A stretch of 64,000 bases of DNA from Hyphomicrobium sp. (GTDB lineage Bacteria; Pseudomonadota; Alphaproteobacteria; Rhizobiales; Hyphomicrobiaceae). A program made the translations under genes and the position numbers. Below, piece by piece: positions 1,714 through 63,141 of the stretch. The stretch's first letter is position 1, and every line of letters starts with the position of its first letter. The stretch covers positions 186,001 through 250,000 of the forward strand of contig JASBTM010000003.1 of the NCBI GenBank assembly GCA_030148425.1, in the 5' to 3' direction. Under the pieces are notes generated by a model. The model had not been told where the DNA came from and did no database searches. It saw only the letters and a program-made list of their open reading frames with translations.

Positions 1714-2118
1714 ATGCAGTTTGCCAATCATCCGGCCCGCATCGCCGCCGTGGCATCCGGCGGCCTACGTTGGACAGGCCCGTCATGTCCTCATCACGGC
1801 GCGACAGAACGGTGGACCTCATCGGGTCGCTGTATCGAATGCAGCCGCGTTTCCGCGCGCGAGCACGAGCGCCGCAAGATACCGCCAGAGGTGCGCGCGG
1901 CGCGCATTGCCGCCCGCGAGGCCGCTGAAGCCGAGCGCCGGGCACGTCCCAACATTCCCGCTCATCCTGACCGCCTTGCGGCACTAATAGCCGGAGAGCG
2001 CATCTGGCGCGGTCCCGATTGCCGCCATGGTCATGGGGGCCTCAGATACACGTCGCCCACTTCCGCCTGCGTCGAATGCAGGCGTATCTCGAATAGGAAA
2101 GCAGCCGATGTCCGCTGA
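1714..2118 (+). CDS. Small protein with two zinc-finger-like repeats
   Basis: This 134-residue protein has two copies of one module. Each starts with R-I/L-A-A and runs W-x-GP-x-C-x-H-G, an R-Y/W-T-S step, and then C-V/I-E-C-x-R (first copy about residues 9-46, second about 88-126). The Cys and His spacing is consistent with a zinc-binding fold per module. A charged, Arg/Glu/Ala-rich helix joins them. The stop overlaps the next start by 11 bases, so the two genes are probably translated together. Such small C-x-H ... C-x2-C proteins are common in phage genomes without a known function; nucleic-acid binding is a guess. Confidence 0.55.
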   Translation: MQFANHPARIAAVASGGLRWTGPSCPHHGATERWTSSGRCIECSRVSAREHERRKIPPEVRAARIAAREAAEAERRARPNIPAHPDRLAALIAGERIWRGPDCRHGHGGLRYTSPTSACVECRRISNRKAADVR

Positions 2119-2692
2119 GTTGAACGTCACCCTTGATCGCCGCAGCCTCGCGAAGTTCCGCACGCTGTTGAAAGCGAATCGGATGATGGCAGCCAAGAGC
2201 CTGACGTTCGTGGCGTACAAGGCCCGCGACGAGTGGCGCGCGTCTTTCCCGACCATGTTCCACCTCCGGAGGAAGTGGCTCATCACGGGCGCGCGTGTGG
2301 AAGTCGCAACGCCGAACCGGCTGCAATCAGCCGTTTATCACAAAGACAAGTACCTAGACCGGCACGTCAAGGGGCTGGATACGCCAAAGAAGGCGGAGGG
2401 GGGACGCCTGTTCGTGCCGGTGCAGCCGATTGAACAGCAAGGCACGCACACCCAAATCAGGGCGATGCTGCGCCGGGCCGACCGGACCAAGCGCAAGACG
2501 TTCCGCGTGCGCGATATGATCTTGCGCCGAATGAGCAAGGACCGAGACTCGATCAAGGTGCTTGGCGTGCTGCGCAAGTCCGTCAGCATCAAACCCCGCT
2601 TCGATGCAGTCGCAATGACGGAAAGGACTGTGAAGCGCGAGTTTCCAACGGTGTATGAAAAGCTGCTGCGCCAGTGGTCGGAGAAGGGGTGA
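2108..2692 (+). CDS. Phage-like protein, possibly virion assembly
   Basis: The 194-residue basic protein starts at ATG 2108, preceded by an AGGAAAG ribosome-binding site. It is rich in Arg and Lys, with a middle section (KDKYLDRHVKG ... GGRLFVPVQ) and a C-terminal part ending KLLRQWSEKG. The composition and the position in a tightly packed small-gene run suggest a phage structural or tail/neck assembly protein, but I do not recognise a precise family. A longer reading from 2027 would lie almost wholly inside the upstream gene and lacks a good ribosome-binding site. Confidence 0.55.
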   Translation: MSAELNVTLDRRSLAKFRTLLKANRMMAAKSLTFVAYKARDEWRASFPTMFHLRRKWLITGARVEVATPNRLQSAVYHKDKYLDRHVKGLDTPKKAEGGRLFVPVQPIEQQGTHTQIRAMLRRADRTKRKTFRVRDMILRRMSKDRDSIKVLGVLRKSVSIKPRFDAVAMTERTVKREFPTVYEKLLRQWSEKG

Positions 2693-3029
2693 GACGTAGC
2701 CGCGCCTACCCCCTGTTTTCGGTCCGGGTCCTCCCAAGGCCACCCCCAGTGCGCATTCGGTCGACAGCGAGGACATCCTCTAGATAATTTGAAATTTTTG
2801 ATTGTTGTTTCCACCCGGATAAAAATTGACAGGTAGCCCGCAAAAAAATGAATATAAAATTCCCAATTCCCGGCCTTATTTCGAATTGCGCCTCCGGCCG
2901 GTGTTGATGGAAAGCATGTAAAGTAGCCACCGAAGCCGTCCCGCTTAGGTTGGGAAAACCCGCCATCGTAACGGCATGCTTCATCACGCCATCACCCGGC
3001 CCGCCAGACCATCGCGCGTCACCACACCG
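2693..3029. other. Intergenic region with an AT-rich block inside the element
   Basis: This 337-base stretch has no convincing gene. Its middle (about 2785-2880) is much richer in A and T than the surroundings, with runs of A and T, and probably contains the promoter for the rightward genes from 3030. No tRNA or strong hairpin is visible. Confidence 0.5.
2826..2860 (+). promoter_or_regulatory. Possible promoter for the 3030-4056 gene run
   Basis: A perfect TTGACA is followed by an A-rich spacer and an AATATAAAAT stretch. The spacing to the best TATA-like hexamer (19-21 bases) is longer than the ideal 17, so this is only a candidate. It lies in the AT-rich block upstream of the helix-turn-helix gene. 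Confidence 0.3.
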
Positions 3030-3410
3030 ATGCATTGCCATCATCTCGTTCGCCTGACCTTTGAACTTATGAAGGCTACAGGCACCACCTACTCCGATCT
3101 GAGTTGGCGGAGCGGAGTCCTCGTGCAGTCGGTGAAGGAGTGGAGGCGCAGGAACATTCCATCCCTCCGCTCCATCGAAGCAGTGCTTGGCGCGTTTGAT
3201 TGGAAACTGACGCCCACACCCCCGCTCGATGTACTGCCGGACGAGGTACGAGCGAAGATCGAGGATATCGGCCAGCATTTCCGATCCGACGACGAAGTGC
3301 TGGCCGCCGCACTGGCTTATGTTGCCTCCACGCCCAAGCCGCACGTTGGCCCGACTAAAGCGCCGAAAATCGACTATCGCAGCAAATACTGGCTGGAGCG
3401 CTCGGTATGA
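3030..3410 (+). CDS. Helix-turn-helix protein of phage/element type
   Basis: The 126-residue protein has an N-terminal XRE-like helix-turn-helix: a first helix, TTYSDLSWRSGV, then VQSVKEWRRR and a third part in which SLRSIEAVLGAF matches the usual end of such domains. The C-terminal half (residues about 65-126) is acidic and then Pro/Lys-rich. Starts at 2976 or 3069 are also possible; 3030 keeps all of the DNA-binding domain. Its stop shares ATGA with the next gene. It may regulate the element, or be a small accessory protein of the same transcript. Confidence 0.5.
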   Translation: MHCHHLVRLTFELMKATGTTYSDLSWRSGVLVQSVKEWRRRNIPSLRSIEAVLGAFDWKLTPTPPLDVLPDEVRAKIEDIGQHFRSDDEVLAAALAYVASTPKPHVGPTKAPKIDYRSKYWLERSV

Positions 3411-3634
3411 GCATGGTCCGCCTAGAATTTGCACTCCCGTCCGGTTTCAAGGGCATCCCCGACACATTGTACGTGCCAGTCCGCAATCTGCGCGTCGAAG
3501 AACTGGAAGCCCTTCAGGGGGCAGATGACGACGCCCTTATGGCAGTCTGCACCGGCCTGTCACTCGCACAGGTGGCACGCCTCACCGCCAATGACCGCGC
3601 CAGTATCATCGCAGCGCGAAGGAGCATCACATAA
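3407..3634 (+). CDS. Small hypothetical protein of the element
   Basis: A 75-residue protein overlaps both the preceding gene (ATGA) and the following one (TAATG), so translational coupling across all three is likely. It has a beta-rich N-terminal part (VRLEFALPSGF, TLYVPVRNL), then an acidic helix (EELEALQGADDDALM) and a C-terminal Ala/Arg helix. I recognise no family. The strict overlap on both sides is the main reason for calling it real. Confidence 0.5.
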   Translation: MSMVRLEFALPSGFKGIPDTLYVPVRNLRVEELEALQGADDDALMAVCTGLSLAQVARLTANDRASIIAARRSIT

Positions 3635-4056
3635 TGACCGATCTGAAGGCGCTGGCCACGGCGCGTGAATTGTTGGCCGAAACCGAGGCCAAGGCCACCG
3701 CTGGCGAGGGCGGGCCGTATGTTCAGCAGAACCTTGAATCTCACCGTCGCCGTGTGGCCCGTCTGGAAGCGCAAGGAGCGCCATTAGTACAGCCTCCGGT
3801 CGCTGTTGCCGCTGTCGCCTCGCAGAGGCCCGTAGCGGTTGCAGTACCCAAAAAGCCTGCCAGCCCTACCGGCACGCGAGAAGAGCGGCTGGCCCGACTG
3901 GCTGGGGCTTGGAAAGCTGATGAGACGTTGCTGGCCACTGCGATTGCCGAAGGAACAACGCCCGATGCGTTCGCGGTCCAACTGGCAGAGCGGAGGGAAG
4001 CGGAAAGCATTGCGGCGGCGATCATCGCAGCGGGTTGCAAGGGAGTGAAAAAGTGA
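3634..4056 (+). CDS. Hypothetical phage-like protein
   Basis: The 140-residue protein has a charged N-terminal helix (LATARELLAETEAKA), a Pro/Val/Ala-rich linker (about residues 50-78), and a C-terminal helical part (RLAGAWKADETLLATAIAEG ...). The last part resembles the tails of phage head-maturation proteases, which end in similar Ala/Glu helices, but no protease domain is present, so this may be only a compositional match. Its start overlaps the preceding stop, placing it at the end of a three-gene run. Confidence 0.45.
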   Translation: MTDLKALATARELLAETEAKATAGEGGPYVQQNLESHRRRVARLEAQGAPLVQPPVAVAAVASQRPVAVAVPKKPASPTGTREERLARLAGAWKADETLLATAIAEGTTPDAFAVQLAERREAESIAAAIIAAGCKGVKK

Positions 4057-28888: not shown

Positions 28889-29314
28889 CCTAAGATAGGA
28901 CTATGAGGCGATCACAGCCGTGGCTAACGAACCGATCTCGAGTGCTTCGTGCTGCTGATATTCCAGCAGAGCGGCGTTTGTGGTCGGAATTACGCAACAG
29001 AAGGCTCTCTGGATTTAAGTTTGTTCGCCAAGAGCCAATTGGAAATTTCTTTGCCGACTTTGTCTGCCGAGAACGAAAATTGGTCGTTGAGGTTGACGGC
29101 GGAACACATGGGGAAAAATCTGAAATCGGGCGAGACGCAGAGCGGGATGCCTTTTTTCGAAGAGAGGGCTATCAGGTTTTGCGCATAGGCAACGAAGATG
29201 TGGCTGCCAATCTAACTGGTGTACTGGATACGATCATGTCTGTTCTGGATAACGCAGCGGTTTGCCCCGATGCCGCCCCTCACCCCAGCCCTCTCCCCGC
29301 GGGCGGGGAGAGGG
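28844..29314. mobile_element. DUF559 nuclease cassette with inverted palindromic ends
   Basis: A nuclease gene is bracketed by two copies of an imperfect 43-45-base sequence in opposite orientation. Each copy has an outer hairpin (CCCTCTCCCCG with CGGGGAGAGGG) and an inner arm (TCAGGGTGAGGGGCGG on the left, its near complement on the right). The unit lies between trpB and trpA, genes normally adjacent. The right hairpin is the last thing before the trpA start, and the nuclease gene's final codons run through it. It has the form of a small transposable unit, but no target duplication was identified. Confidence 0.55.
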
Positions 29315-57986: not shown

Positions 57987-58075
57987 CGTGATCCCGGTGC
58001 GGGCCGAGATCTGTCCAGGCCGAAAGTTGGCCCGAACATTTGCTTGGACGGATCCCCGCCTTCGCGGGGATGACG
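57987..58075. repeat. Palindromic repeat unit A (about 89 bp)
   Basis: It starts CGTGATCCCGG, has a left hairpin (imperfect), and a right hairpin ATCCCCGC-CTTC-GCGGGGAT (58052-58071), ending CGGGGATGACG. The ends are inverted copies of each other, as in the units at 62432 and 63049. It sits between the dienelactone hydrolase gene and pyrE. Confidence 0.75.
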
Positions 58076-62431: not shown

Positions 62432-62521
62432 CGTCATCCCGGCGCAGGCCGGGATCTGCCCGGGCTCGAGTTTTGCGAGGACTTTGTGCTTGGACGGATC
62501 CCCGCCTTCGCGGGGATGACG
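62432..62521. repeat. Palindromic repeat unit B (90 bp)
   Basis: CGTCATCCCGG at the left and CGGGGATGACG at the right are inverted copies of each other. Inside are two hairpins: ATCCCGGC-GCAG-GCCGGGAT (62436-62455) and ATCCCCGC-CTTC-GCGGGGAT (62498-62517), separated by about 42 bases. It is the best short copy of the family in this window. Confidence 0.85.
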
Positions 62522-62646
62522 TTTGTGGGGGATGCTAATTTTTTCCCAGCATCCCGGCGCGGGATAGGATTTATCCTGGTGCATATATTGAGGAACGGTT
62601 CAGTTCGCGGGATGGCGTATCGGCTGGATGTCCGTAAGATTGAGCC

Positions 62647-63021
62647 ATGAAGCAGCCCTGCGTCTATATTCTGGCCCGTAAGCCATACGGCACACTGTAC
62701 GTCGGCGTGACGAGCGATCTGGCCCATCGTATCGCGCAGCACGAGCAGGGTCTCATCGAAGGTTTCACGAAGAAATATGAGATCAAGACTCTCGTCTATT
62801 ACGAAATGCATGCTGCGATGGACGTCGCTATCGCGCGAGAGAAAGGGCTAAAGCGTTGGCGCCGGGAATGGAAGTATCGGCTTATCGAACAAATGAATCC
62901 AGAGTGGCGAAACCTGTTCGAGCCGAGCTCCGGAGAGATTGCTTTTGGTTCAGTCGATAATCCGAATTTGGATTTCGACCCAATTCCCGATTTGGACGGA
63001 TCCCCGCCTTCGCGGGGATGA
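62647..63021 (+). CDS. GIY-YIG nuclease domain protein
   Basis: A 124-residue single-domain nuclease. VYILARKPYGTLYVGVTSDLAHRIAQH has the GIY-YIG-type start (here YIL and YVG), with the catalytic Arg in the following helix, and IAREKGLKRWRREWKYRLIEQ and NPEWRNLF give the usual Glu/Lys residues; it is of the small UPF0213/YhbQ-like type. The last ten codons are made by a palindromic repeat, giving DLDGSPPSRG. Its promoter is not obvious. Such proteins are often found beside palindromic repeats, but no role has been settled that I know of. Confidence 0.9.
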   Translation: MKQPCVYILARKPYGTLYVGVTSDLAHRIAQHEQGLIEGFTKKYEIKTLVYYEMHAAMDVAIAREKGLKRWRREWKYRLIEQMNPEWRNLFEPSSGEIAFGSVDNPNLDFDPIPDLDGSPPSRG

Positions 63022-63023
63022 CG
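62992..63023. repeat. Right-end hairpin within the 3' end of the GIY-YIG gene
   Basis: TTGGACGG leads into ATCCCCGC-CTTC-GCGGGGAT (63000-63019), then GACG. It is identical in the core to the right ends of units A and B, and includes the stop codon of the nuclease gene. Confidence 0.85.
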
Positions 63024-63048
63024 TTTGTGGGGACGCCAACTTTTATCC

Positions 63049-63141
63049 CGTCATCCCGGCGTAGGCCGGGATCTGTCCAGGCTTGATTTTTGGCGATGAA
63101 TTTCGCGGCTTGGACAAATTCCGGTCTTCGACCAGATGACG
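63049..63141. repeat. Palindromic repeat unit C (93 bp, right end decayed)
   Basis: It begins CGTCATCCCGG with hairpin ATCCCGGC-GTAG-GCCGGGAT (63053-63072), then CTGTCCAGGC as in unit A. The right half (TTGGACAAATTCC ... CCAGATGACG) keeps the ends but has lost most pairing. Confidence 0.7.

Follow-up and report, generated by a model that had tools for sequence, protein, structure and literature searches.

Which enzyme, if any, belongs to the palindromic repeats that surround a small nuclease gene in Hyphomicrobium sp.? The question is raised by one end of a 64,000-nucleotide stretch (contig JASBTM010000003.1, positions 186,001 to 250,000; hereafter the window), where a GIY-YIG nuclease gene lies between inverted palindromes and has similar, gene-less palindrome pairs beside it. 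By their sequence form, the flanking repeats are the CGTC repetitive extragenic palindromes (REPs) of Di Nocera, De Gregorio and Rocco (2013; PMC3733652). As the partner responsible for their spread, the nuclease is a strong candidate. Probably, the locus is a minimal element bounded by REPs, in which the nuclease recognises and mobilises the element's own CGTC REPs and of which the gene-less dimers are non-autonomous relatives. That the nuclease recognises its own REPs is very likely; that it mobilises REP units is what we infer beyond this.

A GIY-YIG gene between inverted CGTC REPs

The features of the locus are as follows.

57987–58075, + strand: fourth copy, a gene-less CGTC-REP dimer, 89 bp, 4.4 kb upstream
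62432–62521, + strand: gene-less CGTC-REP dimer (unit 1), 90 bp, left stem CCCGGC, right stem CCCCGC
62490–62579, + strand: direct repeat, copy 1 (right hairpin, spacer, next left hairpin), 5' of the nuclease gene
about 62549–62565, + strand: decayed, shortened left hairpin of the nuclease unit
62647–63021, + strand: GIY-YIG nuclease gene, 124 amino acids; match to PF01541 with E 3.1e-13 and 50.2 bits (cut-off 22.6)
62992–63081, + strand: direct repeat, copy 2 (right hairpin, spacer, left hairpin)
62998–63023, − strand: right-hand CGTC-REP of the nuclease unit, intact, with stem ATCCCCGC and an outward-facing tag
63049–63141, + strand: gene-less CGTC-REP dimer (unit 3), 93 bp, right hairpin decayed

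A previous sequence-only reading had described three tandem units, the outer two of 90 and 93 bp, a middle unit with an open GIY-YIG frame between a decayed left and an intact right hairpin, and a fourth short copy 5' of them, and each of these was confirmed at the coordinates given above. The spacers after the first and second units, which that reading had found alike, are indeed so, and their likeness belongs to a direct repeat of greater length, because 62490–62579 and 62992–63081 are 81% alike in a sequence alignment. The two halves of unit 1, compared as an inverted repeat, score 35, and the highest score reached in 2000 shuffles is 26. Moreover, the last codons and the stop codon (63019–63021) of the nuclease gene fall inside the right repeat. 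The window protein keeps the residues that are invariant among its relatives, and its predicted model has a pLDDT of 89.3. The profile match, the fold and the catalytic-type residues, whose roles we take to be those presumed for GIY-YIG proteins, E65 among them, place it in the GIY-YIG family. It is the only PF01541 match in its own genome (3.72 Mb, 17 contigs, 86% complete).

The search for further copies that had been proposed gave 46 BLAST matches to the 90-bp unit in the same genome, dispersed, with 14 places spanning at least 83 of the 90 bases. Twelve of these 14 near-full units pair unlike ends (CCCGGC and CCCCGC stems, as read by us), and the other two have one decayed end. In addition, CGTCATCCC occurs 112 times genome-wide, versus 5 occurrences of its non-complemented reverse.

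As described in the consulted parts of PMC3733652, CGTC REPs have an unpaired CGTC or TGTC tag, a stem of 8–9 bp starting with AT, a loop of 4–5 nt and a CCA tail, form head-to-head dimers, and include Neisseria dRS3 and Rickettsia RPE-6 and RPE-4; those parts report neither a dedicated transposase nor a link to transposase genes. The repeats beside the nucleases agree with this form in tag, AT stem, loop, tail and occurrence as dispersed head-to-head dimers. A hairpin search beside the nucleases, which presupposed a GTC tag and a stem of at least 8 bp, yielded 188 hairpins, with the tag CGTC in 136 and TGTC in 43, a stem of 8, 9 or 10 bp in 139, 23 and 25, a stem beginning with AT in 154, a loop of 4, 5 or 3 nt in 119, 34 and 25, and a CCA tail in 142. 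The REP tails of the window genome are mostly CTG or CCG. A separate observation concerns two contigs of another genome (C1 and C2 of G136; for example C1:519426–522137), where REP dimers recur in tandem at regular intervals, with a period of about 336 bp.

Bracketing of nuclease genes by such repeats was evaluated by comparing 350 bp on the left with the reverse complement of 350 bp on the right, and a score above 28, the top value among 66 displaced controls, was taken as a pass. By this measure, 53 of 70 nuclease loci were bracketed in a first set that included the window locus (displaced control 0/66), 66 of 75 in a second set (control 1/65; a pattern-limited scan supplied 80 named loci, and the flank sufficed in 75 of them), and 71 of 85 in a third (control 1/82). 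Pooled, 190 of 230 loci passed, compared with 2 of 213 windows placed 1 kb out; among plasmid loci the count was 11 of 12. Since REPs are intergenic, a gene-centred control was added, and only 2 of 105 neighbouring genes of at least 150 amino acids in the same loci passed. Furthermore, the published REP form with its tag outward stood on both flanks of 76/157 loci but of 1/143 displaced windows, and in the new set of 43/85 loci with a control of 0/82. Hairpins in the opposite sense were frequent in the flanks of the 157 loci (48 left, 42 right), which is expected from dimers and arrays. The possibility that genes of this type usually lack flanking repeats, which would have spoken against an element, is contradicted by the pooled count.

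Covariation of nuclease residue 70 with the repeat stem

The discovery set, after dereplication, comprised 67 loci whose stems have 8 bp and whose loops are GNAN, and 427 pairs of protein and repeat columns were tested in it. Residue 70 of the nuclease and base 6 of the stem stood out with a mutual information z of 19.1, the runner-up pair reaching 5.9. Lysine at this residue occurred with C in 34/34 loci, glutamate with G in 15/15, aspartate with G in 2/2 and alanine with A in 5/5, so that K versus E/D divided C versus G as 34:0 and 0:17. Arginine occurred with T twice and with C once, the latter being the window gene. In the predicted model, which is good, residue 70 closes helix 58–70, after the catalytic-type E65.

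The rule was fixed beforehand and then applied to 85 new loci. Among their 27 tetraloop loci, none of which shares its DNA with the first set, 25 had a residue covered by the rule, and it was right in 20 of the 25; the shuffle mean was 13.3, and 20 was reached in 11 of 20000 trials. Over all 98 tetraloop loci, K–C was found in 51/53, E–G in 18/19, A–A in 6/6 and N–G in 4/5. Pairs of nucleases 62–95% identical outside residues 67–73 shared base 6 in 522/530 cases when residue 70 was the same, versus 167/778 when it was unlike, although these pairs are not independent. Even nucleases 79% identical elsewhere, one with E and the other with K, have repeats that differ as G and C. The pentaloop REPs (36 loci) showed a related pattern at stem base 4, with H70–G in 11/14 and R70–C in 13/14; there, residue 19 is as strong as residue 70 (z 7.6 vs. 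7.2).

Gene-less copies obey the lysine rule well and the rules for other residues only partly. Across 21 genomes in which all sampled nucleases have K70, gene-less copies with C6 numbered 506 and those with G6 11, and C was in the majority in all 13 K70 genomes that have gene-less copies. Three A70 genomes have neither C6 nor G6 copies, and the window genome has 13 with C6 and 25 with G6.

The two ends of an element also match each other. Of 76 loci, 48 have an identical inner stem at both ends, versus 7.8 expected when right ends are dealt anew. Moreover, in ten genomes with several sampled copies, an element's own two ends matched best in 25 of 31 cases, with a mean end score of 51.5 for own ends and 22.3 between different copies. 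All five loci that we classed as the GAG type, which has a long asymmetric repeat, carry a K-[GA]-G-S-R nuclease. On the nuclease tree, loop class needs 20 changes, and when labels are shuffled the number is 27.6 (as low in 2 and 0 of 500 shuffles); the tree is weak evidence, because it has 92 columns and 5 of its 108 inner branches are well supported. The matched ends and the covariation together bear out the proposed correspondence between nuclease and repeat sequence.

These findings suggest a mechanism in three steps. The nuclease would recognise the REP hairpin by means of the loop that follows helix 58–70, as the covariation supports, with residue 70 probably reading stem base pair 6 of its own REP hairpins. 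It would then nick or cut at the REP, as expected from its family. Finally, units bounded by REPs, whether or not they contain the gene, would be copied or moved, which the dispersal, the matching ends and the variable presence described below suggest. Cutting might permit such copying or moving as is thought for RAYT with GTAG REPs, leaving no target duplication.

Spread of the units and competing explanations

A nuclease homolog (E ≤ 0.001) is present in 163 of 387 genomes of the class, in 1 to 11 copies. Repeat copies in the same 387 genomes were counted with two exact patterns, one per loop class. Of the 134 genomes that have a strong homolog (E < 1e-15), 68 contain at least five copies, versus 27 of the 253 others, which include 29 with a weak homolog; the odds ratio was 8.6 (P 1.7e-17). 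The excess was also seen within 43 mixed families, with 40 observed and 31.3 expected (P 1.5e-4). Equal abundance of the repeats in genomes without the gene, which would have told against their association, was thus not observed.

In Azospirillum lipoferum 4B, sufB and sufC are separated by a gap of 617 bp, which the gene and three REP dimers or parts of dimers fill. The same gap measures 91 bp in A. ramasamyi, 87 bp in A. oryzae and 129 bp in strain B510, relatives whose DNA is 95–97% identical to that of 4B in the aligned parts; it contains no REP in these relatives, and the spacer is not alignable. The sufB–sufC gap of Shinella PSBB067 holds another nuclease with REPs, and in Sphingomonas parapaucimobilis the gap is occupied by a DUF559 gene that is accompanied by other palindromes. 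As an observation in its own right, this gap (loci L113, L125 and L126) has received independent nuclease–palindrome insertions in three genera, two of the GIY-YIG and one of the DUF559 kind. Beside fnrL in Sphingobium, the element is present in four aligned strains, with a broken frame in TYG73, whereas TYG64 and TYG74 have just one palindrome of its type and TYG72 a different repeat. When five Sphingobium plasmids were compared over 50 kb, one further dimer was seen to vary in presence, with no clean junction. Separately, beside the fix region of two Sphingobium loci (L301 and L303), a palindrome family CGTTCGGGCTGAGCTTGTCGAAG occurs where related plasmids carry a CGTC dimer. Presence of the element thus varies between syntenic sites, contrary to the refuting case in which it never would, but the junctions are not clean. 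Across 119 elements there was no excess of 2–9 bp direct repeats outside the ends, the longest being one exact 5-mer.

Taken together, bracketing, copy number, syntenic variation and covariation support the earlier suggestion of an autonomous nuclease unit with short non-autonomous relatives. Several results weigh against it. No matching pair of ends was found for 40 of the 230 nucleases; 47 of the 134 gene-bearing genomes have no copy by the two patterns, and 12 of the 253 genomes without the gene hold at least 20. A clean empty site was found neither in Azospirillum nor in Sphingobium, the spacers being unaligned at base level. The five misses among the 25 hold-out loci were K–T twice, N–C, R–C and an E at locus L214, where the caller picked a distant hairpin and the near repeats, read by eye, have G6 beside E70; it was counted as a miss. 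The R70 of the window gene adjoins C6, and arginine occurs with C twice and T twice over the 98 loci. Only one independent pair could be compared on supported branches. Among eight genomes with E, D or N at residue 70, the gene-less copies have a G majority in four, a C majority in three (including G407, with 257 C alone) and neither in one. Part of the match between gene and ends may also be descent, because the ends and the gene are inherited together. The window element itself may be inactive today, with its left end decayed and the residue-70 rule poorly followed.

The main rival is homing by gene conversion, in which the nuclease cuts gene-less REPs or REP sites and repair copies the unit in, so that the REPs are targets and docking sites. 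We consider it unlikely. Homing elements would be expected to lose the recognition site on insertion, but here the recognition hairpins are intact at both ends, so insertion would not shield the element from its own enzyme; how far this bears on homing depends on the cut site. Each copy in multi-copy genomes has its own matching ends, and the arrival of gene-less dimers at new sites would be left unexplained.

It is very unlikely that another enzyme or host recombination spreads the REPs and that the nuclease gene was merely caught between two of them. The density of REPs in some genomes, for example around the Neisseria gene, and the REP-rich genomes without the gene counted above favour such hitch-hiking. 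However, ordinary genes in the same loci are rarely bracketed, one nuclease residue follows one repeat base far beyond other column pairs, and the own genome (86% complete) has no match to a Y1 transposase. A host enzyme that trims REP hairpins or cruciforms as a structure-specific nuclease, and is kept beside REPs for control of its own expression, is most improbable, as the patchy occurrence and variable copy number of the gene and its presence or absence at orthologous sites fit mobile DNA better. An artefact of chance or base composition has practically no standing after the shuffled, displaced, cross-paired and gene-centred controls.

Known systems and a second nuclease family

The REP-bounded nuclease element resembles REP/RAYT systems (REPtrons) and REPINs in its layout, with a single gene between inverted tagged palindromes and many gene-less dimers. 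RAYT is an HUH (Y1) transposase that acts with GTAG REPs, whereas here the enzyme has a GIY-YIG fold, matches PF01541 and stands with a CGTC or TGTC tag; PF01797 (Y1 transposase) has no match in the own genome at 86% completeness. The comparison with REP/RAYT, qualified by a different enzyme, therefore stands. Insertion sequences with a DDE transposase differ in that a target duplication is expected of them. Compared with the CGTC REPs of PMC3733652, the repeats have the same form; that paper reports no dedicated transposase, whereas here a covarying GIY-YIG gene lies between the repeats.

Across the elements, the nuclease has about 95–125 residues. Solved structures include no sequence-close relative (best E 0.4), Foldseek gave no match at E ≤ 0.001 so that the structural search yields fold relatives only, no NCBIfam family matches the nuclease, and 50,697 phage records contain no homolog at E 1e-5. 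Of the known GIY-YIG nucleases UPF0213/YhbQ-like proteins, Slx1, the UvrC N-domain and I-TevI, to our knowledge none has been described as the enzyme of a repeat family. As a side observation, the own genome (G000) has no match to the UvrC RNase H domain, probably since the assembly is 86% complete.

In Neisseria gonorrhoeae (locus L133, 6267 bp), the nuclease lies amid 16 dRS3-like cores of the form ATTCCC-N8-GGGAAT, at 2115–3688, a pattern that we take to be the dRS3 core. This K70-type enzyme accompanies C6 repeats, as in the elements described here; the arrays of neisserial intergenic mosaic elements and dRS3 are so dense that closeness alone proves little. If the proposed reading is true, CGTC REPs including Neisseria dRS3 gain their missing enzyme and GIY-YIG becomes a new class of REP-mobilising enzymes. 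It would also explain dRS3-type repeats, which have been in typing use for decades and blamed for rearrangements, and would add a nuclease fold to the repeat-spreading enzymes, in a very small protein whose recognition of hairpins looks programmable. A large repeat family that was described in 2013 without a transposase (PMC3733652) now has a candidate enzyme, and the question is directly testable with short DNA oligonucleotides.

The repeats have been described before, and in its way of life the element resembles REP/RAYT; the enzyme and its code, as far as our searches show, are not in print. No link between GIY-YIG and REPs appeared in titles or abstracts among the matches listed, in a search of open PubMed Central full text, outside which lie bioRxiv and most subscription papers; word searches inside PMC12306157 and PMC6006769 also found no nuclease–REP link.

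DUF559 genes are bracketed by CTCTCCC palindromes at 21 of 30 loci of the class (displaced control 1/30), which makes DUF559 another nuclease family that has palindromes of its own. It is an even question whether GIY-YIG and the unrelated DUF559 nucleases, both tiny, each form elements that rank among the smallest self-spreading ones known (<600 bp) with their own REP class, the GIY-YIG members using a swappable code of nearly one residue to one base pair. Within the window, a DUF559 gene at 28927–29247 on the + strand is bracketed by CTCTCCC palindromes with an inverted score of 49, and its neighbours, with the flanks read by eye, are apparently trp genes. On a Planktothrix plasmid (L115), a GIY-YIG element has on one side a gene annotated as an MmeI-type restriction enzyme and on the other one annotated as DISARM drmA.
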